Virus record (IMG/VR): IMGVR_UViG_3300048793_000013
Location: 1 to 57,892 of that record
Length of the DNA: 57,892 bases
Strand: one strand, 5' to 3'
Source: a virus
Position 1 is the stretch's first letter, and every line of letters begins with the position of its first letter. The translations under genes and the position numbers were made by a program. Positions 14,239 through 55,177 of this stretch are shown piece by piece. Under the pieces are notes generated by a model. The model saw only the letters and a list, made by a program, of their open reading frames with translations, ran no database searches and had not been told where the DNA came from.

Positions 14239-15402
14239 ATGCGTGCGATTGCTGTCATAGATTCAGCCTGGGGAGACAGCGGGAAGGGGGCGGCGGTCGA
14301 TGCTTTGGCTGCCGCCCCCTTCGGCACGCTCGTAGTTCGTCATTCTGGCGGTGCCCAGGCTGGCCATACCGTTGTCACACCGGGCGGCCATCGTCACGTA
14401 TTCAGCCACTTTTGTTCGGGCGCGCTTGCGGGCGCTCCCGGGCACCTCTCCGAGCATTTTGTAGTCAATCCACGCATCTTCTGTGTGGAGCGTTCCGAAC
14501 TGTTTGGAACGAGCGCCAACCTTAATCTGACGGTTGATCCTCGCGCCCTGGTAACCACGCCATTGGACGTAGCTATCAACCGCGCCATGGAGCGCAATCG
14601 AGGAAACAACCGGCATGGCTCTGTCGGCATAGGATTTGGCGAGACGATCGAACGCAGCGAGCGTGGGTTCCCACTGCGCGTTTCCGATCTAATCGACACG
14701 GATAGACTGACTGCCGTGCTCGGCGGGATTATTCTGGATTGGGCACGCAAGCGATGGGACGAACTCGACTTGGAGCAAGAGCGCATCAATTGGGCGTCAT
14801 TCTACGATGAAGCCAAGACGTTCATGAGCCATGTTAAATTGGCTGAACTATCCGATATCGTTCCTCTGTGGGATTGCGGTCTATATTGCACCGTCATATT
14901 CGAGGGCGCGCAAGGCTTGCTGCTTGATCAGCGGCGCGGCATGACGTTCCCATACGTCACAAGATCGAACACCGGCCTGCAAAACGTCCTGCCGATGGCC
15001 GAACAGATCGGGGCGCGAAATCTCCAGGTCGTCTACATGATGCGGCCGTATCTGACGCGGCATGGCGCCGGGCCATTGCCGGGCGAGACTGCGACCCTCG
15101 ACGGCATTGAGGTCGTTGACCCCACTAACCAACACGGAGAGTGGCAAGGTCCATTGCGGTTGGCACCAATGGATTACAGCATAGTAGCCGATGCCATCCG
15201 AGCCGATCTAGCCGAGGCCCCTGGCGTTGAACCATACATTGGAATTTCGTGCCTGGATCAGGTAAAGGATCATGATAGACGGCACGCTATTTCCGATAGG
15301 CTTGAATATGTCATCGGCCATCCGCTCGCCATTGGAGGCCACGGGCCATCGCGTGACAAGTACCAGATCGCGTTCACACAGCCGTTGAGGAAAACGGCAT
15401 GA
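14239..15402 (+). CDS. purZ: Adenylosuccinate synthetase family, phage PurZ-like
   Basis: P-loop AWGDSGKG (Asp13, Lys16) replaces the usual QWGDEGKG; AGHTVV gives His43, the counterpart of the catalytic His41 of E. coli PurA. Further signatures are GFGETIERSERG, FEGAQGLLLD, YVTRSNTG, YLTRHGAGPLPGE and a guanine-binding-like end GPSRDKYQ. At 387 aa it is shorter than cellular PurA (about 430). Phage relatives include PurZ, which converts dGMP toward 2-aminoadenine deoxynucleotide so that Z replaces A in DNA. The Glu-to-Ser change in the P-loop and the shortened body favour PurZ over PurA, but the usual partners (DatZ, MazZ, DpoZ) are not in this window, so ordinary AMP synthesis remains possible. 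Confidence 0.75.
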   Translation: MRAIAVIDSAWGDSGKGAAVDALAAAPFGTLVVRHSGGAQAGHTVVTPGGHRHVFSHFCSGALAGAPGHLSEHFVVNPRIFCVERSELFGTSANLNLTVDPRALVTTPLDVAINRAMERNRGNNRHGSVGIGFGETIERSERGFPLRVSDLIDTDRLTAVLGGIILDWARKRWDELDLEQERINWASFYDEAKTFMSHVKLAELSDIVPLWDCGLYCTVIFEGAQGLLLDQRRGMTFPYVTRSNTGLQNVLPMAEQIGARNLQVVYMMRPYLTRHGAGPLPGETATLDGIEVVDPTNQHGEWQGPLRLAPMDYSIVADAIRADLAEAPGVEPYIGISCLDQVKDHDRRHAISDRLEYVIGHPLAIGGHGPSRDKYQIAFTQPLRKTA

Positions 15403-15824
15403 GTCGTGTCGCTCCACCATCGCCGCCCGGCAGTCTATTCAAGAGTGACTCACCCAAGCGCAAGCTTGACATGGGGAGACACCCGCGCCAGCGCGACGAG
15501 GCATATCTAGCGGCGCTGAGGGAGTGCCAGTGTCTTTCGTGCGGATTAGACGTAGGATGTGAGGCTGCGCACGTTCGTATGTCACGCGGCCGGGGTACGG
15601 GCGGTGGAATGGGAATGAAATCCAATGATGAACACGCCACGCCTCTATGTTCCGGGTGCCATCGTCAACAGCATGCAGAGGGCGAACAAGTTTTCTGGGA
15701 TGCCATCGACATTATTCCGTTGGATGTTGCAAAAAAGTTACATACAGCGTCGCCAGATGTTGCTAGAATGAGGGCAATCATAGGGGCCGTGCTTATTCGT
15801 TTTAGACACACAGATGCAAAATGA
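15399..15824 (+). CDS. HNH-type nuclease-like protein with an insertion-derived C-terminus
   Basis: Residues ~45-95 contain CQCLSCG, CEAAHVRMS, GMGMKSNDEHATPLCSGCHRQQHAEGE and FWDAI: an HNH/zinc-ribbon arrangement typical of small phage nucleases of the NinG/DUF968 kind. It overlaps the purZ stop by ATGA. The last ten residues (LIRFRHTDAK) are encoded by the left 36-bp inverted repeat of the TnpB element, so the original C-terminus was probably replaced by that insertion. Nuclease motifs look complete. Confidence 0.7.
   Translation: MSRVAPPSPPGSLFKSDSPKRKLDMGRHPRQRDEAYLAALRECQCLSCGLDVGCEAAHVRMSRGRGTGGGMGMKSNDEHATPLCSGCHRQQHAEGEQVFWDAIDIIPLDVAKKLHTASPDVARMRAIIGAVLIRFRHTDAK
15787..15822 (+). 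repeat. Left 36-bp inverted repeat of TnpB element
   Basis: Matches 16907-16942 in inverted orientation at 35 of 36 positions (mismatch near position 15797, T versus C). It covers the end of the HNH gene and ends on the first bases of the tnpB ATG. Canonical IS200/IS605 ends are not inverted repeats, so this is unusual. Confidence 0.85.
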
Positions 15825-16900
15825 AGACCGTAACCTATAAATATCGGATCAAGGACCGCAGCGCGCGCAAGACGCTGGCGCGGCACGCTGTGGCGTGCAA
15901 TCAAGTCTGGAACTACTGCAATGCCTTTCAGCAGGACATTGAGCGCCGTTACCGTGCGGGCGCGCCTAAGCGCCGTTGGCCATCGGCGTTTGATCTGGCA
16001 AAACTCTGCAAAGGCACTGGCAAGGAACTCGGCATCCATCAGCAGACAGTCGGCACGATCTGCGATCAATTCGCCAAGAGCCGCGACAAGGCCAAGCACT
16101 CCCTCCGGTTTCGGTCTAGCTTTGGAGTTAACCGAGCACTCGGCTGGATACCGTTTCAAAAGCAGAGCCGACAGGTCGAAGGCAACTCAATTTGGTATCT
16201 CGGCAAGCAATATCGTTTCTTTGGCAGCAAACGTCGCCCATTGCCAGACAATGCCAAAGGCGGGGCTTTTGTTGAGGATGCACTTGGGCGCTGGTACGTC
16301 TGTTTCCATGTCGAGGTGGCAGAGTGCCAGCCACACGGCAACGGCATCATCGGCATTGATTTGGGGTTGCATACGCTGGTGACTACGAGCGCCGGTCAAA
16401 AGATTGAAGCCCCGCGTCACTATCGCGCCTTAGAAGGCAAGCTTGCTGTTGCGCAGCGCGCCCATAATAAGCAGTGCGTGCGGCGCATCCACGCCAAAAT
16501 CAAGAACAGCCGCAATGATTTTCTACATAAGCTTTCGACCACTCTGGCCGATCAGAACGCGTTCATCGCGGTCGGGGATGTCAACTCGAAACAGTTGGCC
16601 AAGACGCGGATGGCGAAATCCGTGTACGACGCCGGCTGGTCTACTTTCCGTTCCATGTTGAAATACAAGTCGGCCGGATACGTGGAAGTAGACGAAAGAT
16701 TCACGACCCAAACCTGCTCTCAGTGCGGTTGTTTGCCGCCTGAGAGGCCGCAAGGTATCGCAGGGCTTGGAATAAGGCAGTGGGATTGTTCCGAATGTGG
16801 TGCAAGCCACGACCGCGATGTGAATAGCGCTCTGAACATTCTCGCCATTGCCGCCCGCAGTGCTGCGGGTCCAGTTGTGGAAAGCCGGGTAGCCGCATGA
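15821..16900 (+). CDS. tnpB: TnpB-family RNA-guided nuclease with rearranged RuvC-II residue
   Basis: Order of motifs in 359 aa: N-terminal YKYRIKD strand; RuvC-I GIIGIDLG (Asp180); bridging helix; RuvC-II region AFIAVGDVNS, where the usual Glu of VEDL is Gly252; SVYDAGWSTFRSMLKYK; Glu292 in VDERFTTQTC; zinc ribbon CSQCG ... CSECG (Cys299/302/323/326); and RuvC-III HDRDVNSALNI (Asp331/333). Gly at the RuvC-II position with a nearby alternative Glu is known from a rearranged-site TnpB group and Fanzor, so it need not be inactive. There is no TnpA. The start overlaps the HNH stop (ATGA). The guide (omega) RNA is expected over the 3' end and downstream. Confidence 0.85.
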   Translation: MKTVTYKYRIKDRSARKTLARHAVACNQVWNYCNAFQQDIERRYRAGAPKRRWPSAFDLAKLCKGTGKELGIHQQTVGTICDQFAKSRDKAKHSLRFRSSFGVNRALGWIPFQKQSRQVEGNSIWYLGKQYRFFGSKRRPLPDNAKGGAFVEDALGRWYVCFHVEVAECQPHGNGIIGIDLGLHTLVTTSAGQKIEAPRHYRALEGKLAVAQRAHNKQCVRRIHAKIKNSRNDFLHKLSTTLADQNAFIAVGDVNSKQLAKTRMAKSVYDAGWSTFRSMLKYKSAGYVEVDERFTTQTCSQCGCLPPERPQGIAGLGIRQWDCSECGASHDRDVNSALNILAIAARSAAGPVVESRVAA

Positions 16901-28505: not shown

Positions 28506-28535
28506 GGCCGCACTCTCACGGGTGCGGTCTTTTTC
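28506..28535 (+). terminator. Intrinsic terminator after the metallopeptidase-like gene
   Basis: CCGCAC-TCTCACGG-GTGCGG (28508-28527) followed by TCTTTTT. On the minus strand it also lies at the end of the giant late gene, so it can separate the two convergent units. Confidence 0.8.
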
Positions 28536-31500
28536 TATGCTCCCAATGTTACTTCGAGGTTGCCCCGCTCATGTGGAATTGGTTTGACATCCGGATTCGA
28601 CGGCGCATTAGGCGCCGCTTTCTTTTCAACGCTCGCCAACGCGCTACGACACCAAGCATTCCACTGGGAAATGTCGTAATCGTGTTCGGTAAGCCATTGT
28701 CGTTCGGCGATATTTCCGTGGTCTTTATGGGCGGTTTTATATATGACAACTCGCTCCTTACCGGACGGCTCACGCCCGTACTTTGTCTTGAAGGCTGCAA
28801 GGGCTTCCTTCATCGCCTTGTACTCTGCCACCTCATGACGAAGCAGCGGTTGAACCGGATCAAGCGGCTTGCCGTTGTTCATAATCCGACGCGGCAGGGA
28901 CTTGTCATAGTAGAAGATATCTCCCGCCTTGGAAAGTTCTGAAATTACGTTCACGTCATATGTGTGGTTGATTACCGGCCAATCATGATCGCTGTCTTTC
29001 AATGGCTTGGTGGTGTCGCCATTGGCCAACCAGTCCTTGAAGTCATCAATGGACATTTCTACCATATGGCCGAGTCGCTTGCCACCCTTCCCGTCAGAGA
29101 ATCCTTTGAGGTAGACGGCTTTGGCTTGGGCAGCAGAGCCGAACGCCAGCATGCATTTGTGCTCATCATACTTGCCGGTCTCAGCGTTCAATTGATCGAT
29201 GACAAACACCTTGCGAGAGGCACGGTGCGGCCCGACGTAGCAATCAACACAATCCTGATCAGCACCGGTAGTCCGCTTGAGGTAGCCATACGCCGCCGGC
29301 ATTGTGACGGACCAACGCTTATCATCAGGGCCGATGCCTGATCGTTCATGCCCCTTGGCATTTTCAATTGCGATATCGAGCCCGTGCACATTGATATGTG
29401 CCTTGCGATAGTTGCCAGCCTCTTTCTGTGCCTCAGTTGGGTTGCTGTCAATGTAGTGTGCCATGACGCGGCCACCTCTGGCGCGTTCCTCGGGGCGGGC
29501 CTCTCTCAATCTGTCCTTTGCACTATCCGATAGATAACGCCATTTGACCTTACCTGGAATATTGCGGCGATCGATCTTGTCGAGATAGTGAAGGCGCCCG
29601 GCCGACGTAAGTTCATTGTCCCACCATGCCTCATCGTCAACTTTAGGTGCCGTGGCCTCTTGTGGCTTAGATTCTGATGTTTGAGCCGAGGGCGATGGCT
29701 TGGCGGCTGGCGCTTGCTCACCCAACGGCTTATACAGCCGTGCCCCACGCATTTCCTTTGGTTCTGTGATTGGCGCCACCGGTTCGGACTGCTTGGCCTT
29801 CACCTCAGCAGAGTGCACGTCGGGATGCTTTGGCGCCTTGATGGCCTTAGTAAACTCATCCAGTTTCTTGAGAGATTCCTGATATTCTTTTTCCTTCGGC
29901 CATGCGGTCGTTAGTGTCTTTTCCAACCGCTCTACACTCTTTCGCTCGTTCGCTAGTTCTTTTTCCAGCCGAGTTGGGTTATCCTTAATGTTACCGAGAA
30001 TGTTTTCAAACCGGCGTATCAACCCGGCCGGGTCTGTATGCTCGTTGATGACAGTTTGGTTTACAGCGGCATATCTGGAATTTCCTACAAGTGACGGCGT
30101 TGCCTCTAACGAAGTACCGTCTCCATCCCAGACATGACGCAATTGAATGTTCATGTCAAAACCTGACATGCGGCCGACATTTACGACCTTCGGGGTATAG
30201 AACTTCTGTCCACCACCAAAAGTCTTCAGCCTATCAAGGATTTCATCCCCGGCTGCCTTGCGCTCGGTTATCGTCTTGCCGTCGAGATCGACTGCAAATT
30301 TCTTGCCGGAGGTATCCGTAACGCGGCCGGCATCTTCTTTCGCCCCAGGTAGTGCAGTTTCGTATTGCTCAATCCGAGACTTGGCGGCATTGCCTTCGCC
30401 AAACGCCCGAGACTTGGTTTGGTCGTACACCCGCTTTTGCGACGTGAGCATGCGCACATTGCGGTCAAGTTCGGCATGTTCCAGGATACGAGGATCACCC
30501 GACGCTGCGGCTTTCATCTGCGCTGCATCAGGCAGCGGGTTGTCGATGTCCTCTGCCCAACGAGAACCCTTGGCACCGGACATAACCTGATTGAGGAACC
30601 CGGCTTTACGCTCTAGCGTCTGCCACATGAAAGCGTCAAATGACTTCTCAGTCACATAGCGGTAGATATCGACGTTCGAGTTTAAGTTGCCTTGGCGGAT
30701 AATGCGGCCGTCACGCTGTTCAACTTCTGCCGGCTTCCATGGTGCGTCAAGATGGTGCATCGCAATCAGACGATCCTGCACGTTCGTGCCGACGCCCATC
30801 TTTTCTGTGGAACCCATCAGAACGCGGATATCGCCGTCGCGCACTTTCTTGAACAGCTTTGCCTTCTTGATGTCGTCAGTAGCGTCGTGGATGAAGGCTA
30901 TTTCATGGGACGGAATGCCCTTGGCTACAAGACGCTGCTTGAGATCATCGTAGACGCTGAAGTCAGACGCGCCTTCCTCATCCCCCCCCTCTTCAGCCGA
31001 CTTTGCCTTACCCTTCCTGGCATTCTTTGGCGTCCCCATGTCGAGGAACACCATTTGAACCGTTCCAGGCTCTTTTCCGTTTTCCCATATCTTGTGGATG
31101 TTGCCGACAGCCTTAGCTACCTTGCCTTGAGGATTGAAGTCGAAATCAGCTAGTGTCCCAGGATTTGGCATATTCGATAAAGCATATTGGTCCGAGACAT
31201 TGTTGCCTATAAGCCTACCGTCAGTTGCCACCTTGCGGGCCGCAGTGCCAACGCTTGCAGCCATGGGTGCGCCCTTCTCAGGACGCACTCCCTTTAATAG
31301 TTCAAGTGACTTGATAACCCCTTGAACAAAGTTCTCCTCCGCAGACGACAGCTTGGCATTTACAATATGCGTCTTGGCTTCCGGCGCTGGCAACTTGAGC
31401 ATGGCCGCTGTCTTGGTATCGGCAATTTCGGAATAGAGAGAAATCAACTCCGGGATGTTGACGAACCTGGAGAACGATGCAACGTCCTTGAATGTGCGGC

Positions 31501-34500
31501 CATCTTGCGACAACTCGGTGTTAGTTGCTACCTTACCGAACGTGTTTGCCCATGCATCGAACGTTTCAAGCCCGCGCTCCTTCAGCTTGTCGTATTGAAG
31601 GTACCGCTGCATGGTCCACATTTCGGCCATGGTATTCGATATCGGCGTGCCGGTCGCAAATACAGCCGATCGGCCCGGACGGTTCTGTTCTAGGTACCGC
31701 GTCTTGAGGAACAAGTCTTCGGCGCGCTGTGATGCATTTTGGGCAAGACCCTTGACGCGATCAAACCGCGTTATGAAGTCGAGATTCTTGTACTTGTGGG
31801 CCTCGTCCACATACATGAAGTCAATGCCAGACTCCTCGAATGTCGTACCTTCGTCCTTGCGTTCCTCGTTCATCAACTTATCGAGTTTTTTTCTGAATGT
31901 CTTCTTTCTCTTTTCCATAGCCTTTACGGTTGGAGAGTTTTTGCCGCCTTCCTGTTCTTCGGCCTTTTGAACGCGCTCTAGTTCGTCCATCTGGTCCCTG
32001 ATGAACTTCTCGCGGAAATCACGTTGCATGTTGATGCGGCCGAATGCATCGTGCGTAAAAATAACGCCGTCCCAGTCGTTCGACGCTACCTTGGCAAGGA
32101 ACTTCTTACGGTTGTCCCTTGTCATCTCATCCTTTTCAGCGACAAGAATTTTGGCGTCCGGATATGCCTGAATAAATTCGCGGGAGAATTGCTCCAGCAT
32201 GTGGTTTGGAACCACATAGGCAGGCTTGTTGATAAGTCCGAGGCGCTTCTGTTCCATGCCGGAAGCGATCATTGATACAGTCTTACCACTACCGACAGCA
32301 TGCGCCATCAGAGTGTTGCCTTTCTGGATAATCCGCCAAACGACATCAAGCCGATGCTTGCGACCAGCAAAGTCAGGATTTAGCCCCGGCAACGTCAAGT
32401 GCGAACCGTCGTGATTTTCACCAACTAGGTCATTGTGGAGGCGGTTATAGATGCCTTCCAACAATTGAGAGCGTTCCGGGTCCTGCCATACCCAACCCTC
32501 GATACCCTTCTCAGGATCGCCCGTGAATGCTTCCTTAAGCAGTTCTGTCTTGACGCGGGCTTCTTCGGTCTTCGTTGTGTTTACCGCCCTGTGGCCGTCC
32601 CTATCCGGCGGATCGCGGACGGTAATAGGGCGCCCATTCATTGCCGATTCGGCAATCTCATCTACCCCAACCTCTTTTGTCCCGTACTTGGCACGGGCGT
32701 CGCCATCGAAGTACGATGCCTTAACCCGCCAATCGCCCGTGACTGGCACCTTGACAACCTTGATGCCACCCCCGCCAATCTCTTTGAGAAAATCCTCATA
32801 GACCGCCTCAGGCACCCACGGAGCCCCGAATTGGGCCGTAATTTCGGGACCAACCAGCGGCGTAGGCTGTACCTTTTCGAGCGCTGCAACATTACGCAAG
32901 TATGATGGATCATTGGCGGCGATCGACCGGGCATCCTCCAGTTTTTTTATGACGTTGCCAGACAGATACCTTGACGCTGTTTCCCATGCACGCCCGTCCG
33001 GATTTTGAAAGACCGTATCACCCAACGCGCTGATTGCAGCCTCGTGACTGTCTACACCAAGCGACTGCGCAATATGGTCTAGGTCAACGCCACCTTTATC
33101 ATTGAGAGATGCAGCGAGAGCATCAGACGGCCCGTTAATCTGCCGTTCCATCGGAGGCCGGATGACATCCTTAGTGAAAATGTCGGCCAGCTTGGTTTTT
33201 CCAGTCTCGGAATCATAGTTCTCAATGGAAGATACTTTCCATGAGTCGGGATCATTCCGAAATGCCTTGAAATTTGGATGACGCACAAGAACAACATTCT
33301 CGCCAGCCTTGTTGAGGCGCGAGGTGACGGTCTTCTCTTCTTTATTGATTGGGCCGTAGAGATCGACGAAATTATCATACTTCTTGCGCAAATCGGCGCG
33401 GAGAGCATCCTTGTCGCCCACGCCATCAATCTGCGCTCGCATCAGATCGTTGTAGGTATCTCTAATTCCGATGAGTTTCTTAACACGGGACGCCTCGATC
33501 GTCCCTATATCATGCTCATGTCCCTGCCCTTCGCGACGCTGATAGAGCTTCCCATCCTTCAAGAAGAACGCGCCATCCTTGATTCCTGCGCCAATTTCGT
33601 TGCTGTGAATCGGCGGTGGTGGCGGCGTATCGCGCACAAGCATCGCCCCTGCCGGCATATCATTTCGCGCTGCCTCAGCAATCTTTTGTTGCATGCCATC
33701 AGGGTCGCCAATCAGAACAGGCTCATTAGCGCGATGTTGTGTGCCCTGTAGACGCATTTCCCCAAGCATCATTTGTGGACGGTCAGAAAAATACTCATTG
33801 ATCTTTGTTGGCCCTTCGGGGGTCTGAATTGTTTTCAAGTCTGTCCATTTTACCCCATTGAAAGGCTGTTCACCCGGAACTTTCTTGCGCAGGAAAATAA
33901 TATCAGTCGTTACCTGTGTGCCTGCGTTCGACGCAAAGGCACCCTTGCTGCCACCGGGAAGACGGATAGCGCCCACAAGATCGGAAGTGTTTGCCAGTAG
34001 ACGACGTACATTGGCGTGCGTAGGTGCGTCCATTGTGTGAGATGACGTGATGAACGACACGATGCCACCAGGGCGCACCTTGTCGAGCGCCTTGATGAAA
34101 AAGAAGTTGTGAATCGAGTGTGAACCGTATGGCTTTTCCTCAACAGGGTAGTTGCCAAACGGCACGTTTGAAATTGCCAAATCGTAGTGGTTTGCCGGTC
34201 GCTTCAAGTCTTCGAAACCGTGAACATTGACCTCGGCGCCACCATAGAGCTTCTTGGCAATGCGGCCGGTGACGGAATCCAACTCAACGGCCGTCCATGC
34301 CGTCTTTGGCGTCCATTTATCGGGAATCAACCCAATAAAGTGCCCTATTCCGGCCGATGGCTCTATGGCCATGCCACCTTCGTATCCGAGATGATCCATG
34401 GCATCCCACATGCCGCGAACAACATCAGGCGACGTGTAGTGAGCATTCGGTGTCGAGGCGCGGGCAGAATCATACTCTTCGTCGGTCAACAGGGCCTTGA

Positions 34501-37500
34501 GTTGGCCACGCTCAGCTTCCCACTGTTTCCGGTAATCCCCCTTGAACATATCTTGAGCGTGAGCACCCCAGCCGGTGTACTTGACCAGCTTTGCCTTTTC
34601 CTCTGGGGTCGCATCGCGATTTTCGTCCTCAATCTGCTTGAGAACCTTGATGGCCTCTATGTTGCCGCGAACTTTCTGCTTTGCTCCGCCCTCGCCAACC
34701 AAATCCTCATCGGTAATGCGATAGTTCGACCGCGAGCGTTCGGCGATCTTCAGTTCTGCGTCTCTTCGTCCTCTGATGACGGCGGGAGGGGCTGGTTTAT
34801 CAGTTCCTCCCTCACCAGTTCGTCCACCTCCATCCGGCGGTTTTGTAACGCTCTCACTTTTTCCAGGTGTGGGAGTTTCTGGACCTCCGGGGTGTTGAGG
34901 TATTGGTGCATGAGGCTCGCCAACCTCTCCTCGGCTTCCTCCCCCACCGAAGAGAGATAGTTGTTCAGGTCGCCGGACTGGCGTAGCTGCGCCAGCATTT
35001 GCGGGTTGGCGTCCTCCAGGAACTTGCGGTGCATTTCCGCGTAATCCTTCGCCGAGTACATCCTTTGGCCCTCCGAATAAGTCTTCCTGGCCGGCAGCGG
35101 TACGCTTCTTGGCCTGCATCAGGGGCGGTTGCTCTTCTCCCGGCCGGGCAGATTCAGCCGCCCTACGCGCCCCCGCTTCGAGGATGGCTTGCTCGTTGCC
35201 GATTGGTAGCGGCTCCGTCCGTAGTGGACGGCCCCTAACGTCGCGAGAGGCTACTTCTCTTCGGAGTTGATCGGCTCCCTGTTTTTCTACCCGTTCCGGG
35301 CCACCGGCCTCATCGACACGCCTCATGACTTCTTTCAACATTCGGCCTTTGAGCGCCTTGTATTCCTCTTTGTTCCCTCTCAGGCTAGCCTTGTCCCCAC
35401 GAAACGCAGACAATTCGTCAGCCGTCAACACCTTTGGATAGAATCTTGCCCATCCGACATAGGAAGGTGTGCGTACCGCAGCTTCTACGTCAAAGGTAAT
35501 GCCGTCACGGGTAAACGGCCCCTCGACCAGGAACCCCTTAGAAGACCCGGACGGGTAATCATCAACAGGGCGTGTCTTGCGCAACTTAAGCCCCGTGACA
35601 GTCTCGACTTTGGGATAATCACGTTCCGGATTCTTGGTCAGAAACCGAATATCCATATCGATCGGTTCGTTGGGCCTAACGCGGGCATAGGTGCGCGATA
35701 CGAGGGAGCCGCCCATGACAACTTTGATGTCAGGGCCGAGCTTGTCTTGCCACTCACCGGCAACCTTGTTGGCGGTTGAAATAAGCTTGCCGGCGTCAGG
35801 TTCTTCCGGCCTGAGTTTTACTGGGACTTTTGGTCCAGCAGCACGGAAGATTTTGCCTTGATCGCCTTCTCCGCCCGCTGCTTCAAGTCCTTCGCGGCCT
35901 TCGCCAACCCCGGATCGCCGTATTTGGTCGCCACCCGCTGGAACGCCCTCGCCATTACCAGGGCCATTGCGGTCGGGAACCTCTTCTCCATAGCCTTCCC
36001 ATCCTTTGTCACGAGCGATTTTCTGGATATCTCGCCGTTCAACCGGTGCCAGCCCTAGATCAAGTCCCGGTTCGGCCGTAACCTTGCGTGCCTCATCGGC
36101 ATAGAACCCAAGTGCATCACTAATCCTCTTGCTGCCAAGTGCCCGACGATTCCCCCGCATGTCAAGCTCAGGAGCATAGAAAGCCCGCATGAAGCCCTCG
36201 ACGGTATCAGGTATCTTATTGAAAGCATCTGACTGTGCCAAGTAGGTGTCGAGTTTTGTCCCCTCCCCACGGATTTTTGCCGTCCGCTTGACCGCTTCCA
36301 TGAGGTCCGGGGTGGCATCCATATCCGGCCGGACACGTCCTGCCTCGACATCAGCCCTCAATCTGGCCCATTTTGGTGCCACGGTTGCCAACGCATTGGA
36401 GATCGAGCGGATTTCATCATCCGTCGATTCAGCAATACGTGCTATCACCCCGACATCGCCGTATGCCTTGGCAAAGACGGCATTGCGCAACCGGGTAGCG
36501 CCTTCAGCCGATAACTGCCCAGATGCGTCCATAAGAGCACCTTGTTCGGCCTGGGGGAGTTCCTGGACGAAGCGGCGAACAAAATCACGGTTTGCCCCAA
36601 TATCATTTGGATTGTGCAGGAGATTGAGCGTCTTATCATCGATCAGCTTGGCATCGCCACGCGCTCGTTCGGTGGCCGACATGGCAAGCGTAGACGCCTG
36701 ATTAGCCCCGGCCGTGAAGGCTTGCCGCTCTTGTGGCGACATCGGCGTAATGCGCTGACGCACCAATACCGGATTGCGATACTGGGAAACGTCAACACCC
36801 TGCCGGGCGAGCCATTCACGGTATTCTTGAACCTTAGCCCCACCTTCGCCATAGACATTGCGAAGCGCTAATACTCGGCCGTTGCCACTCTCGACCATGC
36901 CGTCTGGGCCAACGATAGGCGCTCCGCGATCGGCTTCAGCGGAGTAGCCTAGACGCTCAGGATCGAGATTGGATGCAATATCGCGAACTTGGGCTTGGCT
37001 GGCTGCACGGCTGCGCTGGCGCGGCTGTAGGGCCTTGTCGTATCCGGCGTCTTGGGAGGTCTTGAGGCTGGAAGCCTCGACCACAACCGGCGCTACATCA
37101 ATGGCAGTACCGTCAGCGGTCGATACACGGTGCGGGCGTAGGTTGGAAGGCTCGGCGCCGATCAGCCCTTGGGCGGCGGCGAAGGGGGATGGTTCTTGGC
37201 CTTGACCATTGCCGCCAGCTTCGCTGTCGCCTCCTCGAAGTGCCGGCTGGACATCTCGTCCATTTCGGCTGGCGTCGGCGATTTCCGCACTGATGTGGTC
37301 GGCAAGTTGGCCATTTCCCTCAATTATCCTCGTTGGTCTCTCGGAAGTGTCAGCGTCTAGGAAGTCATTCGCCTCACCTCTCAATGTATAAGCGGTCTGA
37401 CGCGGTTTGTCACCAACTTCCTTGATGTAATTTGGGTCTACAAGCCGTCCGGTATCAAGGAAACGCTTGATGTTGCGGCGGCCGGAAATCTCAGGCGTTG

Positions 37501-40411
37501 CAGCAACATGGGCGATATCAACCGTATAGCCTGCCGCCTTCAGATTTTCGATTGACTTGCGTATTGTTTCGGCGTTGTGGCCCACCTTTGGCAGGATAAG
37601 ATTTGCACCTTCTATGCCGAGGTTGAAGAACACATCTTTGGCGAGTTCGGAGCTTTCCTCATGAACGGCTTGCGTTCCTACTCCGTTCTCGTATTCAGGG
37701 ATTACTTTCTTGGCTTCATCAGCGTCAACCAAAGCTGCTTTGTATCGACGGGCCAGTGGTTCGGAGATGGACGATTTGCCAGAGGCTGGAGGGCCGAGGA
37801 CAATGATGGCGTGACGGCCATTTTCGACCGGCCCCTTTGCAAAATCTTTAGCCTGTTCGGTCAACCGTTGAACGGCATCATCCCAGCCGTGAACTTTTTC
37901 GCCATTAAAGTTATAAACACGGGCATCGCGCCAGTCCGGATCGGCGAATTGCTCGGGCGAGCCAGTAGGAACACGGCTTCTATCGATTGCTACTTGACCC
38001 TGAACGTATGGGTGTTGTTCCAGTTCATCGAGCGGTGCCCCGCTGTCCAATGCGGCCTGTAGGCTTTCCCGATTGCCAGTCTGCGGTAGAGCGCCGGTCG
38101 GCCCGCGTGTCGGTATTGGAGGTGGCGTCGTTCCATTGTCTTGGTACAGACTACGAAGCGCAGCATCGCCTTCCGGCCCCTGCATCGTCCAAATACGAGC
38201 GGCCTCACCACGGATGCGATCATAAAGAGCTTTCTGCCCATCTTTTCGCTTTGCCAATTCCCGGCCGGCAAGTTTTAGTGCTCCTTTGGCAACGGTTCTC
38301 CACGGATGAGAAATTAGACCATGAGCGGTGCCGACAATGCCAGGACCAGTCTCAATGAGCGATCCAAGCGTATCCTCTTCGGGCGGCAACCAATGCTTGC
38401 TGTAGAGCCTGCGGGCTTGCGTCTCGCTATTGTCAACCAGCCGGTTCATGGAATTGTGCATACGGCGTTCGGCTTCTAGAGCCTTGAAGTAGCCATTTGC
38501 CTTTTCCTCACCAAGCAGTGCAGCGAGTTTTGCCCTGTTTGCGTCCGTCAATGCCTTCCCGAGCATTGTGAGTTCGCCGCCACGAGCACGATCGAGAACA
38601 CGGTTGAAATGCTTGGCCACACCTTGAATGGCAGCTTGCTTTTCTGGTTCGCCCATCCTTTCCAAAAGGTGAGGTATTTCAGATTCATCAAGCGTCGCGG
38701 ACAACAGCTTATCGCGGCCGAATTCATACGCCTTCATCACGCGCGTAATAGGTGCCCATTTCTCTCTTGCATCCCTCCATACACCACGAACGGCAGGATC
38801 AGGGTGGTTGTCGATCTCGTTTAGAAGGGCGTTTTTGAGCGTAAGCAGATGGCGGGCATTGTTCTTGTTACCGCTCCTAAATGCAGCGTCAATCTTGTCG
38901 TCAAGAGCTTCTTTTGCCAACTGGAACGCGCGTGCTGTTGGGATACGGTTTTCTTTGCCAAGTTCATCCTCAAAGCCCTCATCTATGGGCTTTCCCATGT
39001 TCTTAAGCTGACGATTAGCCTTGGCAGTCGCCGCCTTCATATCGGGGCGGGTGAGAATTTCCTTGAGTGCCTCAGTTGGTGCAATGCGTGTATCTTCAAA
39101 CGTCTTCCAAAAAGGAGCCGACTCATTCTTTCTGGCTTGCTTTTGCATACGAAGCCAGCCGGCCTCATTGACTTGCGGCCCAAGGTACTCGCTATTGATG
39201 TTCTGAATACGCTCTTTCTCTTCGGCACGGCGCTGTCTGTAGGATTGTCTGATTTCGGTGCTTGGCTGGCCTGGAGTGACCGCTATGCCGGCAGCATGAC
39301 GTTGCGTATCCTCATTCAGATCGGCATTGAATTCATGCCGAGACTTGTTCTCCGTAGCGGCCTCAAGTTCGTCGAGGCTACCAAAGTTATCCCTCAGAAT
39401 GTCGCCAACCATCTTCTTGGTTTCTGGCAACATTTCATCCAGCGCGCTCTGTGCCCGAGCAGCACCAACGCTATCATGGACGGGATCAGCTTCACCAAAA
39501 TGAGGGACTTCCGGCGATACAAGCCTTACGTTAGGATCAACCTTGTCGCGCCCGAAGGCAAATGGCGGAACCTCTGCCTCTCCCGGCTGTGCCGCCGCAA
39601 TCTTTTGTTCGTCCAGCAACTGTGAGAAATCTTGTGCGGGAGGCTGCGGCGCTTCCGGCTGTGCCGCAGCCTTTGCCTTATCTCCGCGTATTGATTGTTC
39701 ATGCGCTAGTCTTGCCTCAACCGCGTTCCTTGATAAATTGCCTGCCGCACTAGCGATTGGATGACCGGCCAACATACCGGCGAACCCTGCCACCTCTTCA
39801 TAGCCTGTCCCTTCAGCGGCTTTTTCAGCCGCAAATGCGCCAGTTGCAGGGGCAACGGCTCGCGTTAATAATCTTGTGGCGATGCTGCCGGGACCACCCA
39901 CGACAAATGGTAGGAATCCGCCAAGTTCCTGTAGATATTCATCGCTAGCAACAGGGGTACCGTCAGGATTGCGGCGCACTTCTGGGAGAGGCCCGGAGAC
40001 GTTTTGCTCAAACGGCTTAATGAAATCTTCCGGCTTGGGAAGCGATCTAATGCCGGGTGGTAGTGCACCATGCTCTTGTTGCAGTCTTTGATATTCGGCA
40101 AATTGTTCTGGCGATAGGGCTTTACCTGCGCCCCAATCCATAGCCCGGCCGGCAGCATCAGTCAGATATCCAGGTATTCCAGGAAGGCCAACGGTACCCT
40201 TGACAAGACCAGAACCAAGCTGCTTGGCCTTTTCGTAAGCCTCATTACTGGCAGCGTTAACCACATCGCCCACACCGAAGGCATTGCCATAGGTGCGATC
40301 TGGTTGAGGTTGTGGCTTGTCAGCCAAGAATGCATCAGGGTCAAACCCGCCACCTCCGCCGCCAGATGGCGACGTGTCATTCAGGAAGGCGTCGGGATCG
40401 AAATCAGCCAC
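28535..40411 (-). CDS. Giant polyvalent protein: zeta-like kinase, ParB-like, NTase, DNA methylase, SF2 helicase, pyrophosphatase domains
   Basis: One uninterrupted 3,958-codon frame, a fifth of the window. Order read: N-terminal virion-type region with repeated FDPDAFL; helical linker; zeta-toxin-like P-loop kinase (GPPASGKSS, ~871-879); DdrB/ParB-like domain (GNGRVLAL near 1177); pol-beta-type nucleotidyltransferase (GGSLVSRTY then DMDIRF, ~1564-1580); Gly/Pro linkers with clamp-binding-like EQLSLF (~1816); N6-adenine methylase (EPSAGIGHF ~2014, SNVPFG ~2080); SF2 helicase (GSGKT ~2705, DEAH ~2869, TGTPIS ~2920, QRDGRIIRQG ~3235); coiled coil; inorganic-pyrophosphatase-like domain (~3650-3800, GLDIAIENAKG, DCYVGPH). 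This is the DarB-like polyvalent class, probably packaged and injected to protect incoming DNA or act on the host. Individual domain roles are inferred. Confidence 0.85.
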   Translation of the reverse strand: MADFDPDAFLNDTSPSGGGGGGFDPDAFLADKPQPQPDRTYGNAFGVGDVVNAASNEAYEKAKQLGSGLVKGTVGLPGIPGYLTDAAGRAMDWGAGKALSPEQFAEYQRLQQEHGALPPGIRSLPKPEDFIKPFEQNVSGPLPEVRRNPDGTPVASDEYLQELGGFLPFVVGGPGSIATRLLTRAVAPATGAFAAEKAAEGTGYEEVAGFAGMLAGHPIASAAGNLSRNAVEARLAHEQSIRGDKAKAAAQPEAPQPPAQDFSQLLDEQKIAAAQPGEAEVPPFAFGRDKVDPNVRLVSPEVPHFGEADPVHDSVGAARAQSALDEMLPETKKMVGDILRDNFGSLDELEAATENKSRHEFNADLNEDTQRHAAGIAVTPGQPSTEIRQSYRQRRAEEKERIQNINSEYLGPQVNEAGWLRMQKQARKNESAPFWKTFEDTRIAPTEALKEILTRPDMKAATAKANRQLKNMGKPIDEGFEDELGKENRIPTARAFQLAKEALDDKIDAAFRSGNKNNARHLLTLKNALLNEIDNHPDPAVRGVWRDAREKWAPITRVMKAYEFGRDKLLSATLDESEIPHLLERMGEPEKQAAIQGVAKHFNRVLDRARGGELTMLGKALTDANRAKLAALLGEEKANGYFKALEAERRMHNSMNRLVDNSETQARRLYSKHWLPPEEDTLGSLIETGPGIVGTAHGLISHPWRTVAKGALKLAGRELAKRKDGQKALYDRIRGEAARIWTMQGPEGDAALRSLYQDNGTTPPPIPTRGPTGALPQTGNRESLQAALDSGAPLDELEQHPYVQGQVAIDRSRVPTGSPEQFADPDWRDARVYNFNGEKVHGWDDAVQRLTEQAKDFAKGPVENGRHAIIVLGPPASGKSSISEPLARRYKAALVDADEAKKVIPEYENGVGTQAVHEESSELAKDVFFNLGIEGANLILPKVGHNAETIRKSIENLKAAGYTVDIAHVAATPEISGRRNIKRFLDTGRLVDPNYIKEVGDKPRQTAYTLRGEANDFLDADTSERPTRIIEGNGQLADHISAEIADASRNGRDVQPALRGGDSEAGGNGQGQEPSPFAAAQGLIGAEPSNLRPHRVSTADGTAIDVAPVVVEASSLKTSQDAGYDKALQPRQRSRAASQAQVRDIASNLDPERLGYSAEADRGAPIVGPDGMVESGNGRVLALRNVYGEGGAKVQEYREWLARQGVDVSQYRNPVLVRQRITPMSPQERQAFTAGANQASTLAMSATERARGDAKLIDDKTLNLLHNPNDIGANRDFVRRFVQELPQAEQGALMDASGQLSAEGATRLRNAVFAKAYGDVGVIARIAESTDDEIRSISNALATVAPKWARLRADVEAGRVRPDMDATPDLMEAVKRTAKIRGEGTKLDTYLAQSDAFNKIPDTVEGFMRAFYAPELDMRGNRRALGSKRISDALGFYADEARKVTAEPGLDLGLAPVERRDIQKIARDKGWEGYGEEVPDRNGPGNGEGVPAGGDQIRRSGVGEGREGLEAAGGEGDQGKIFRAAGPKVPVKLRPEEPDAGKLISTANKVAGEWQDKLGPDIKVVMGGSLVSRTYARVRPNEPIDMDIRFLTKNPERDYPKVETVTGLKLRKTRPVDDYPSGSSKGFLVEGPFTRDGITFDVEAAVRTPSYVGWARFYPKVLTADELSAFRGDKASLRGNKEEYKALKGRMLKEVMRRVDEAGGPERVEKQGADQLRREVASRDVRGRPLRTEPLPIGNEQAILEAGARRAAESARPGEEQPPLMQAKKRTAAGQEDLFGGPKDVLGEGLRGNAPQVPGGRQPANAGAATPVRRPEQLSLFGGGGSRGEVGEPHAPIPQHPGGPETPTPGKSESVTKPPDGGGRTGEGGTDKPAPPAVIRGRRDAELKIAERSRSNYRITDEDLVGEGGAKQKVRGNIEAIKVLKQIEDENRDATPEEKAKLVKYTGWGAHAQDMFKGDYRKQWEAERGQLKALLTDEEYDSARASTPNAHYTSPDVVRGMWDAMDHLGYEGGMAIEPSAGIGHFIGLIPDKWTPKTAWTAVELDSVTGRIAKKLYGGAEVNVHGFEDLKRPANHYDLAISNVPFGNYPVEEKPYGSHSIHNFFFIKALDKVRPGGIVSFITSSHTMDAPTHANVRRLLANTSDLVGAIRLPGGSKGAFASNAGTQVTTDIIFLRKKVPGEQPFNGVKWTDLKTIQTPEGPTKINEYFSDRPQMMLGEMRLQGTQHRANEPVLIGDPDGMQQKIAEAARNDMPAGAMLVRDTPPPPPIHSNEIGAGIKDGAFFLKDGKLYQRREGQGHEHDIGTIEASRVKKLIGIRDTYNDLMRAQIDGVGDKDALRADLRKKYDNFVDLYGPINKEEKTVTSRLNKAGENVVLVRHPNFKAFRNDPDSWKVSSIENYDSETGKTKLADIFTKDVIRPPMERQINGPSDALAASLNDKGGVDLDHIAQSLGVDSHEAAISALGDTVFQNPDGRAWETASRYLSGNVIKKLEDARSIAANDPSYLRNVAALEKVQPTPLVGPEITAQFGAPWVPEAVYEDFLKEIGGGGIKVVKVPVTGDWRVKASYFDGDARAKYGTKEVGVDEIAESAMNGRPITVRDPPDRDGHRAVNTTKTEEARVKTELLKEAFTGDPEKGIEGWVWQDPERSQLLEGIYNRLHNDLVGENHDGSHLTLPGLNPDFAGRKHRLDVVWRIIQKGNTLMAHAVGSGKTVSMIASGMEQKRLGLINKPAYVVPNHMLEQFSREFIQAYPDAKILVAEKDEMTRDNRKKFLAKVASNDWDGVIFTHDAFGRINMQRDFREKFIRDQMDELERVQKAEEQEGGKNSPTVKAMEKRKKTFRKKLDKLMNEERKDEGTTFEESGIDFMYVDEAHKYKNLDFITRFDRVKGLAQNASQRAEDLFLKTRYLEQNRPGRSAVFATGTPISNTMAEMWTMQRYLQYDKLKERGLETFDAWANTFGKVATNTELSQDGRTFKDVASFSRFVNIPELISLYSEIADTKTAAMLKLPAPEAKTHIVNAKLSSAEENFVQGVIKSLELLKGVRPEKGAPMAASVGTAARKVATDGRLIGNNVSDQYALSNMPNPGTLADFDFNPQGKVAKAVGNIHKIWENGKEPGTVQMVFLDMGTPKNARKGKAKSAEEGGDEEGASDFSVYDDLKQRLVAKGIPSHEIAFIHDATDDIKKAKLFKKVRDGDIRVLMGSTEKMGVGTNVQDRLIAMHHLDAPWKPAEVEQRDGRIIRQGNLNSNVDIYRYVTEKSFDAFMWQTLERKAGFLNQVMSGAKGSRWAEDIDNPLPDAAQMKAAASGDPRILEHAELDRNVRMLTSQKRVYDQTKSRAFGEGNAAKSRIEQYETALPGAKEDAGRVTDTSGKKFAVDLDGKTITERKAAGDEILDRLKTFGGGQKFYTPKVVNVGRMSGFDMNIQLRHVWDGDGTSLEATPSLVGNSRYAAVNQTVINEHTDPAGLIRRFENILGNIKDNPTRLEKELANERKSVERLEKTLTTAWPKEKEYQESLKKLDEFTKAIKAPKHPDVHSAEVKAKQSEPVAPITEPKEMRGARLYKPLGEQAPAAKPSPSAQTSESKPQEATAPKVDDEAWWDNELTSAGRLHYLDKIDRRNIPGKVKWRYLSDSAKDRLREARPEERARGGRVMAHYIDSNPTEAQKEAGNYRKAHINVHGLDIAIENAKGHERSGIGPDDKRWSVTMPAAYGYLKRTTGADQDCVDCYVGPHRASRKVFVIDQLNAETGKYDEHKCMLAFGSAAQAKAVYLKGFSDGKGGKRLGHMVEMSIDDFKDWLANGDTTKPLKDSDHDWPVINHTYDVNVISELSKAGDIFYYDKSLPRRIMNNGKPLDPVQPLLRHEVAEYKAMKEALAAFKTKYGREPSGKERVVIYKTAHKDHGNIAERQWLTEHDYDISQWNAWCRSALASVEKKAAPNAPSNPDVKPIPHERGNLEVTLGA
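34750..35061 (-). CDS. Overprinted TnpV-like small protein inside the giant gene
   Basis: In the +1 frame of the giant gene, ATG 35061 has GGAGG 8 bases upstream. The 103-aa product (MYSAKDYAEMHRKFLEDANP, then QLRQSGDLNNYLSSVGEEAE and ERLASLMHQYL) resembles TnpV-type proteins (SGxLNxYLxxxxxxAxER ... NxRxxxxELVREE). Here the giant frame is a low-complexity Gly/Pro linker, exactly what overprinting would produce. Both frames are probably translated. Confidence 0.6.
   Translation of the reverse strand: MYSAKDYAEMHRKFLEDANPQMLAQLRQSGDLNNYLSSVGEEAEERLASLMHQYLNTPEVQKLPHLEKVRALQNRRMEVDELVREELINQPLPPSSEDEETQN
35818..35991 (-). CDS. Second overprinted small protein inside the giant gene
   Basis: Also in the +1 frame and again where the giant frame is a Gly-rich linker (EEVPDRNGPGNGEGVPAGGD). 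ATG 35991 opens MEKRFPTAMALVMARAFQRV then AKAAKDLKQRAEKAIKAKSS, a helical basic protein of 57 aa. AAGGA lies about 10 bases upstream; a TTG at 36042 would extend it. Weaker evidence than the 34750 gene. Confidence 0.4.
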   Translation of the reverse strand: MEKRFPTAMALVMARAFQRVATKYGDPGLAKAAKDLKQRAEKAIKAKSSVLLDQKSQ

Positions 40412-53553: not shown

Positions 53554-54239
53554 CGATAGAAACCAGAAAGTCCAGGAGTTATATATAAAGCAACATTCTC
53601 AGTATTTTGTTTCATTGCTAAAGCAAACGCCTCATCTCCGTCAAGTTTTCTTTGAGCCTCCAATGCGGGAGCATAATGTCTGGCAAGTCGATGAGCCAAG
53701 CCGGCGACATAGGCATCAAGAAATAGATATTGCAAATCAGCATTGCCGCCCTGTGCAGGATTTGCGTCATCTTGTTGAATGTAAGACCAAAAGCTACATT
53801 CATATATCGCGTTATTATCTGGTACCGGCCAAAATGTTATAGTGGGGTTTACCGTTCTTAAAAAAAAGAACGATGTAGGAAATCCCTGCTCTGTTGGGTC
53901 TGCAAGAGATGCTAGATCAGTGCGAGAAAATGGCAGCAAAAGTCTGTTTGATCCTCCACCAGGACCATTAGGACTTATATATAGATCAAGTATCATTACT
54001 GTATTAGATGCGATGGGATACGTTGCTGTTCCAGCCACCATCGGAAAGCTTGTAAGAATCTGTTTGAAAAGTAGCACACCCTCATTGACAAACTTTACCT
54101 GAAGAAGGTTAGCTTCCTCCCTCGCATCACTCATATGCTGCGGAGTCAACTCTGTACGTTTCACACCAATACGACTAAACGCGGTCAAAAATAACGAACC
54201 TAAAATTGGATTATAGGAGGTAGTACCAGATAGGCTCAT
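53550..54239 (-). CDS. Tail/head-completion protein (229 aa)
   Basis: Begins YNPILGSLFLTAFSRIGVKR then MSDAREEANLLQVKFVNEGV, with LTSFPMVAGTATYPIASNTV, ITFWPVPDNNAIYECSFWSY and a C-terminal LDAYVAGLAHRLARHYAPAL. Proteins with this alpha/beta layout act as head-to-tail connectors in podoviruses (gp4/gp11-like). Overlap with the GIY-YIG gene upstream. Confidence 0.6.
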   Translation of the reverse strand: MSLSGTTSYNPILGSLFLTAFSRIGVKRTELTPQHMSDAREEANLLQVKFVNEGVLLFKQILTSFPMVAGTATYPIASNTVMILDLYISPNGPGGGSNRLLLPFSRTDLASLADPTEQGFPTSFFFLRTVNPTITFWPVPDNNAIYECSFWSYIQQDDANPAQGGNADLQYLFLDAYVAGLAHRLARHYAPALEAQRKLDGDEAFALAMKQNTENVALYITPGLSGFYR

Positions 54240-55120
54240 ACAAACTCAAATCGACGGCCTTTTGCCATCTTTGCTTGACCGTGCACAACTCTACCAACAG
54301 GACTAATAGCAATTCCGTAATGCTGGGCCGCAGACTTAATGCTTGGAAAGACTAACCCATCGTCAATGCAGCGAACTTGACGGCCTTGCTTTGCGTTCAT
54401 TGCTTTGAACCGGATGGACCTCCGCTCAATCATTTCAGGGGACAGCGGTCGAGGTGTTTTGCCGTTTTTTCGGCCGATCCTTACATTTTCGCAAACTTCA
54501 GGTGGCCTCTTTTCGCCACGGCTATGACCTATGTAATTACCTCTTTCACGTCTGGTAGAAACCATCTTTTCAATGCTGTCTATTGAACGCTTTTTACCGG
54601 CCCATGGCCCAGGCTTTCCAATGTGGCTGGCAGAAAGACGCCTAAGCGTTTCCTGTGAAGGCTTGTAGCCGGTCATGCCTTCGCCACCGGCCGTCAGATT
54701 GTATTCAGGACATATGCATGCAATTAGCTCTTGTTCCGCAAACAAAGCGCGCTCATAATCTCGACATATGCCAAAAATCAGAAATTCAAATGCTTCCTTG
54801 CCATATTTTCTTATGGCTCGCGTAAACAGACCGTAGCCTCCCTGTTTAGCTGTTTGGAAGTGATGTTTCTTCCTTTTTTCAAGTCCTGTGCTTGTCACAC
54901 CGACATAAAGCTTATTGTTAATGGTATTTATGGCGACATAGACAATGCACTTGGGAGCTACGATCTTCGAATTTGCCTCATGAACTTGTCGAAGGTGTCT
55001 TATGACAAGCGGCCGATTGCGTCTGATACTCTCGTATGTCCTATTCTCGAATCCAGACCCTCTTAAGCGCTCTGGAACCACATACGCGAACCCCTTGATT
55101 GGCACTGATTTGGCAGTCAT
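54236..55120 (-). CDS. GIY-YIG homing endonuclease
   Basis: Residues ~58-150 are the GIY-YIG core in its relaxed form: CIVYVAINTINNKLYVGVTS (V-Y-V and Y-V-G), then GLFTRAIRKYGKEAFEF with the conserved Gly/Arg pattern and AEQELIACICPEYNLTAGG with Glu and Asn. A NUMOD-like tail (GHSRGEKRPPEVCENVRIGR then MIERRSIRFKAMNAKQGRQV) follows. N-terminal residues 1-50 look unrelated and may be from the disrupted host gene. ATG 55120 with GAGGGGG upstream. Confidence 0.8.
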   Translation of the reverse strand: MTAKSVPIKGFAYVVPERLRGSGFENRTYESIRRNRPLVIRHLRQVHEANSKIVAPKCIVYVAINTINNKLYVGVTSTGLEKRKKHHFQTAKQGGYGLFTRAIRKYGKEAFEFLIFGICRDYERALFAEQELIACICPEYNLTAGGEGMTGYKPSQETLRRLSASHIGKPGPWAGKKRSIDSIEKMVSTRRERGNYIGHSRGEKRPPEVCENVRIGRKNGKTPRPLSPEMIERRSIRFKAMNAKQGRQVRCIDDGLVFPSIKSAAQHYGIAISPVGRVVHGQAKMAKGRRFEFV

Positions 55121-55177
55121 CCCAGCCCCCTCTTGCTGAGACTCCATACCACAAAAAGAGGCCTCGTACATCCTACC

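Follow-up and report, generated by a model that had tools for sequence, protein, structure and literature searches.

The stretch of DNA analysed here (the window) is a 57,892-base virus record of IMG/VR, IMGVR_UViG_3300048793_000013. On its minus strand it carries a giant gene for a DarB-like polyvalent protein and, inside this gene, a much smaller one of the TnpV family. Computation showed two selected frames at a fixed +1 offset, the inner one belonging to the TnpV family and having its own start signals and its own predicted fold. The small gene is very probably an ancient overprinted gene, i.e. two same-strand frames are both kept by selection, TnpV is initiated internally and the giant frame forms a disordered linker over the same bases. 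To judge from the sequence, both frames are probably translated in the cell, TnpV by internal initiation.

A first-pass annotation had described a 103-codon open reading frame (ORF) in the +1 frame of the giant with GGAGG eight bases before its ATG, a TnpV-type product, and a Gly/Pro linker in the giant frame. All of these points held. The ORF starts with ATG at 35061-35059, ends with TGA and lies fully within the giant frame at an offset of +1. Its product matched the Pfam profile TnpV (PF14198) with 49.8 bits (cut-off 27, E 3.9e-13), which is not expected of an accidental out-of-frame ORF; the 103-codon frame is therefore considered a real gene. Positions 25-111 of the 111 profile positions were aligned, while the first 24 are missing from the window copy; this N-terminal part is present in embedded copies from Bacillota. 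No family for the small protein was found in NCBIfam. No recombinase adjoins the window copy, whereas the founding TnpV members sit by the large serine recombinase of a transposon. Such a neighbour is a matter of context and not of homology, so that membership in PF14198 by sequence stands. The overlap reads as Gly, Pro, Asp and Glu in the giant frame and is predicted to be disordered. The bases of the Shine-Dalgarno (SD) sequence double as part of the giant-frame Gly-Gly after QEDLF.

Weak matches in the +1 frame of other giants were first seen in TnpV searches of related phage records. Single-sequence searches of viral contigs gave no match or a single distant relative that lacks the overlap region, and therefore an alignment was used as query. 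It was made from the N6-adenine methyltransferase (MTase) domain of the giant alone, which lies downstream of the overlap, in order to avoid a selection bias. The resulting set comprised 170 loci (80 viral loci, 80 genome loci, the window and nine phage records), some of them near-duplicates. With a profile of the small protein, a TnpV-like ORF was detected on the strand of the giant and in its +1 frame in 156 of the 170 loci, and none was found in +2, in frame or antisense among these MTase-selected loci. Individually, 62 of 86 +1 proteins matched PF14198 (E<=0.01). Among 17 loci that were initially negative, seven were incomplete upstream, seven had a divergent +1 ORF in place and three were truly without an ORF. 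Locus L138 likewise has the embedded gene; the break in its giant lies beyond the overlap. The hosts span five or more bacterial phyla, with members of the Rhizobiaceae, Bacillota, Verrucomicrobiota, Acidobacteriota and Synergistota, and carrier phages infect Vibrio, Pseudomonas, Klebsiella, Erwinia, Burkholderia, Agrobacterium, Ochrobactrum and Microcystis. Agrobacterium phage Atu_ph08, Vibrio phage VvAW1, Klebsiella phage SopranoGao and Burkholderia phage BcepIL02 are culturable carriers of the overprint. As almost all related giants of viruses and mobile elements share this embedded gene and its frame, evolution evidently preserves two proteins encoded by a single piece of DNA.

A separate coding sequence for the embedded gene was not listed in any of the annotated phage regions opened. 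In the record of Sinorhizobium phage PBC5 (L003 / L280, 25498-26155), the giant is annotated as two genes because its upstream part runs into the TnpV frame; this split reflects an indel from old sequencing or else a genuine frameshift.

Selection on the +1 frame was visible in the position of substitutions within codons. For 54 independent pairs, differences per codon were counted separately at positions 1, 2 and 3 of the giant frame, the first of which is the wobble position in the +1 frame. Upstream of the overlap, the values were 0.346, 0.304 and 0.476, and downstream of it 0.249, 0.191 and 0.477. Within the overlap they changed to 0.288, 0.175 and 0.141, and the log ratio switched precisely at the borders of the ORF and then back. 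Position 1 exceeded position 3 in 52 of the 54 pairs in the overlap and in none of them downstream (sign tests 52:2 and 0:54). Thus, substitutions move to where the +1 frame has its wobble position, and the TnpV protein is under purifying selection. Chance, or conservation by way of the giant frame alone, was ruled out by this test. Over the same bases, protein identity was 76% for TnpV and 62% for the giant frame. Divergent ORFs of the 8P type, which are beyond the reach of the Pfam model, gave the same signature.

The giant frame is under selection as well. In the 156 overlaps it contains no stop codon, compared to 552 expected when TnpV was re-encoded with the codon usage of the giant and 165 when TnpV's own codons were permuted; the third frame holds 942. 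Synonymous resampling of the TnpV codons predicted the composition of the giant linker with r = 0.94. Relative to this prediction, the real linker is richer in Gly, Asp and Glu, poorer in aromatic residues and devoid of Cys, and this shift beyond what TnpV imposes shows selection on the giant frame, too. The first-pass annotation had regarded the linker as forced by the overlapping gene, and this is largely correct, but the additional Gly, Asp and Glu are a tuning of the giant frame itself. It had also named purifying selection in the +1 frame and homologues with the same relative frame, ATG and SD sequence as support for dual coding, and both were found.

Start signals are enriched at the beginning of the embedded ORFs. 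ATG was the codon at 139 of 155 chosen starts, and the duplex energy with the anti-SD sequence had a median of -7.9 kcal/mol compared to -4.5 for controls (p 1.7e-35), which were starts picked likewise from other parts of these giants' +1 frame. Bacillota copies repeatedly show AAAGGAG before the ATG. TnpV would accordingly be made on the mRNA of the giant from its own SD sequence and ATG. A programmed +1 frameshift, by which a truncated N-terminal part of the giant would be fused to TnpV, is very improbable. The frame relation is always +1, as such a frameshift would have it, and in the PBC5 record the upstream giant part continues into the TnpV frame, although a sequencing indel or a real one explains this equally well. 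The enrichment of ATG and SD sequence at the embedded start argues against it, and the +1 sequence upstream of the start appears unconserved. Moreover, in a quarter of the loci the +1 frame closes no more than 21 nt before the start, and in a tenth no more than about 6 nt before it, which leaves little room for a fusion, and free-standing relatives of TnpV exist as genes of their own.

It is also hardly credible that the giant frame is open across TnpV by accident and that its two sides are made as separate proteins. High G+C raises the likelihood of open frames, and verrucomicrobial giants start only about 20-40 codons before TnpV, but the absence of stop codons from all 156 overlaps, the closed equivalent frame of free-standing TnpV genes and a linker composition tuned for disorder speak for a continuous giant. 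So does the distribution of QLxLF, a consensus motif for binding to the sliding clamp (PMC4549789). It occurs 36 times in the 450,073 codons of the 156 giants, and all 36 lie in the region from 150 nt before TnpV to the MTase, while the remaining 390,475 codons contain none. As many loci are related, these are not 36 independent events. The motif lies shortly upstream of the TnpV overlap, within it, or between the overlap and the MTase (e.g. L106, L109, L118 and L158), and verrucomicrobial giants open with M...QLDLF. The linker thus carries a clamp-type motif in part of the family, and a contact to the clamp is putative.

The two frames also differ in their predicted structures. AlphaFold, supplied with 86 relatives, modelled the +1 product with a confidence score (predicted local distance difference test, pLDDT) of 92.8 and a looser C-terminal tail. 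The protein is predicted to be all-helical, with helices at residues 4-18, 20-29, 32-55 and 65-88 and no strands. The giant linker was predicted to be disordered and the MTase that follows it reached a pLDDT mostly above 90. Order and disorder therefore alternate between the frames along the same DNA. Fold searches of PDB and BFVD with the +1 product gave no significant match, and a comparison of its sequence with PDB returned only noise from helical proteins.

A search from the TnpV side yielded 85 genome loci. In 38 of them TnpV was embedded, always in +1 and with the giant frame open, and in 47 it was free-standing with the equivalent frame closed. Free-standing copies occurred away from any giant, often next to large serine recombinases or restriction-type genes. 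In a tree of 156 rows and only 96 columns, a small number, which is unrooted, free-standing copies were nested in the embedded clade of Bacillota, phage-type embedded copies formed the rest and the window copy grouped with other embedded copies. A single free-standing clade was not rejected by the approximately unbiased (AU) test (p 0.115), and the data did not decide between one embedding event and many. Within 190 sampled genomes of Alphaproteobacteria, the sole TnpV match was the embedded seed.

The first-pass annotation had suggested a gene captured from a mobile element. A recent capture of a transposon gene by this phage, with embedding by chance, would fit the first naming of TnpV in mobilisable transposons (PMC3158075) and the free-standing copies that adjoin large serine recombinases. 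It is excluded as a recent event, with next to no likelihood left for it, by the same +1 embedding in giants of many phages and several phyla and by the grouping of the window copy with embedded ones. Capture from a mobile element as such is a conjecture; the free copies branch inside the embedded set, but the unrooted tree gives no direction.

Two arrangements other than embedding were seen. Streptococcus phage SsuZKB4 (L185, 10121-10499) has a giant without embedded TnpV, and a TnpV gene broken into two frames lies directly downstream. In Bacteroides elements (L189, 1148-1597; L191, 4001-4447), the end of a DUF1896 gene overlaps the start of a DarB-like MTase gene directly downstream by 14 nt. 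The profile similarity between DUF1896 and the TnpV-like family was weak (hhalign probability 71%, pairwise E 3.7e-5); it hints at an unembedded counterpart of TnpV in Bacteroidota and is too weak for a claim that DUF1896 is an unembedded ancestor.

Taken as an ancient overprint, the same 312 bases of one strand would encode two proteins: the giant frame would supply a flexible, acidic, disordered linker before the methyltransferase-helicase core, and the +1 frame a complete, separately initiated, folded helical protein of the TnpV family. The arrangement presumably dates from an early ancestor of the clade to which these DarB-like giants belong and would be maintained by purifying selection on TnpV together with selection for an open and disordered giant frame. 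Several observations weigh against this. Three loci (L127, L151 and L168) are without an embedded ORF and the giants of P1 (DarB), PHB04 and Dfl-JY45 lack the overprint, so a giant of this general kind can dispense with TnpV. SD signals are weak in verrucomicrobial copies. The excess of position 1 is modest in the window's own clade, with 0.379, 0.309 and 0.316 differences per codon in the overlap compared to 0.200, 0.122 and 0.516 downstream. The similarities of TnpV and MTase correlate only weakly across pairs (rho 0.33), and no structural match points to a function of TnpV.

Concerning this function, it is tentatively proposed that TnpV serves the methyltransferase-helicase giant as a small helical partner, namely an accessory subunit, an inhibitor or a chaperone, whose supply is tied to the mRNA of the giant. 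The pair is kept across many phyla, and in the streptococcal element mentioned above TnpV lies just downstream of the giant. TnpV could also be independent of the giant, as an excision factor or a separate anti-defence protein, and the embedding would then serve genome compression or protection from loss. This alternative, which competes with the partner role and not with overprinting, is about as probable. It agrees with the free-standing copies that have no giant nearby and often adjoin large serine recombinases or restriction-type genes. Excisionases of the Xis type have a winged-helix fold with a beta hairpin. A resemblance of Tn4451 TnpV to lambda Xis has been postulated (PMC3158075), but the predicted fold of TnpV consists of helices only and had no significant match in PDB, which speaks against the fold of lambda Xis. 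There is also no recombinase next to the window copy, and TnpV accompanies this giant clade almost without exception. More broadly, DarB-like giants of phages and conjugative elements from many phyla might be a two-protein system, with the TnpV partner encoded in a disordered, clamp-binding linker and the free TnpV genes of Bacillota as escaped copies; this is rather unlikely at present.

The giant itself unites an N6-MTase and an SNF2-type helicase in a single phage protein, as is characteristic of DarB-like proteins. P1 DarB is packaged in the virion, injected and protects DNA from restriction. In a giant from Bacillota (L124), a MutS domain I follows shortly after the TnpV overlap (aa 430-509), and in three Verrucomicrobiota loci (L120, L121 and L136) the frame of a small helix-turn-helix regulator, XRE-like by eye, lies directly upstream of the giant. 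The features of the window copy are compiled below.

Table. Features of the overprinted gene and of the giant gene in the window; aa, residues of the giant protein.
Feature	Position	Strand	Remarks
Overprinted TnpV-like gene, 103 aa	34750..35061 (stop codon counted)	(-)	+1 frame of giant
Shine-Dalgarno sequence GGAGG	35070..35074	(-)	8 nt 5' of ATG; duplex energy -10.0
QLSLF, motif of beta-clamp-binding type	34949..34963	(-)	giant frame, inside overlap; dual-coded with TnpV LNNYLSS
QEDLF, looser clamp-like motif	35075..35089	(-)	giant frame, just upstream of Shine-Dalgarno sequence
Giant-frame linker, predicted disordered	34817..35152	(-)	pLDDT <50, residues 1-112 of model; covers most of overlap
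Giant DarB-like polyvalent protein gene	28535..40411	(-)	3958 aa from GTG; phrog_10089 match 1704.6 bits
N6-adenine methyltransferase domain	33692..34744	(-)	starts where overlap ends; used as unbiased query
SNF2 / Helicase_C motor region	30689..31657	(-)	domain matches
Zeta toxin domain	aa 867-1010		
ddrB-ParB domain	aa 1100-1220		
DarB / N6-MTase-SNF2 helicase region	aa 1863-3558		
InPase domain	aa 3660-3795		

Elsewhere in the window, an adenylosuccinate-synthetase-like protein is encoded at 14239-15402 (+). It matches phrog_1211 ('2-aminooxy adenylosuccinate synthetase', PurZ-type), which raises the possibility that the phage produces DNA with 2-aminoadenine. A TnpB/OrfB-type protein with OrfB_IS605 and Cas12f1-like TNB domains is encoded at 15821-16900 (+), and a homing-endonuclease-like gene lies amid structural genes at 54236-55171 (-).

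Overprinting, TnpV and DarB-like giants are already known. The host giant is one of the DarB-like polyvalent proteins (Iyer et al. 2017, PMC5512222; phrog_10089), combining N6-MTase and SNF2 helicase with ParB, Zeta-toxin and InPase modules. P1 DarB itself, unlike the window giant, is without the overprint. The polyvalent-protein survey (PMC5512222) does not mention TnpV, overlap or overprinting, and no description of the pairing of TnpV with a giant was found in the literature searched, which left most subscription papers outside. A conserved part of a widespread machine of the anti-restriction type seems to escape standard annotation systematically. The finding also indicates a partner and a contact to the sliding clamp, both of them testable, for giants that are poorly understood, and the embedded and free-standing versions of one gene provide a large natural data set on dual coding.

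The founding members of PF14198 come from Tn4451 and Tn6104, mobilisable transposons of C. perfringens and C. difficile (PMC3158075). By profile score they belong to the same family as the window copy and, like them, free-standing relatives lie by large serine recombinases. TnpV of Tn4451 and Tn6104 is a gene of its own, whereas the window copy is overprinted in +1 in a DarB-like giant and lacks the first 24 profile positions. In Bacillus subtilis, comS lies inside srfAB as a small gene in a different frame of a giant operon gene, and both proteins are used (PMC12915044). TnpV is likewise a small out-of-frame gene within a giant one, but comS is small and described for B. subtilis, while the TnpV overprint is folded and found across phyla on mobile elements and phages. 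Prokaryotic overprinted genes tend to be short and of narrow distribution, and their proof is difficult. In phages, E in D of phiX174 and Rz1 in Rz of lambda are same-strand, out-of-frame genes with their own starts, and are short lysis genes of narrow range. TnpV shares with them the same-strand, out-of-frame position and the separate start, but its host is a 12-kb polyvalent gene, and the overprint, with about 100 aa and membership in a named Pfam family, keeps one fixed frame across several phyla, including their conjugative elements.
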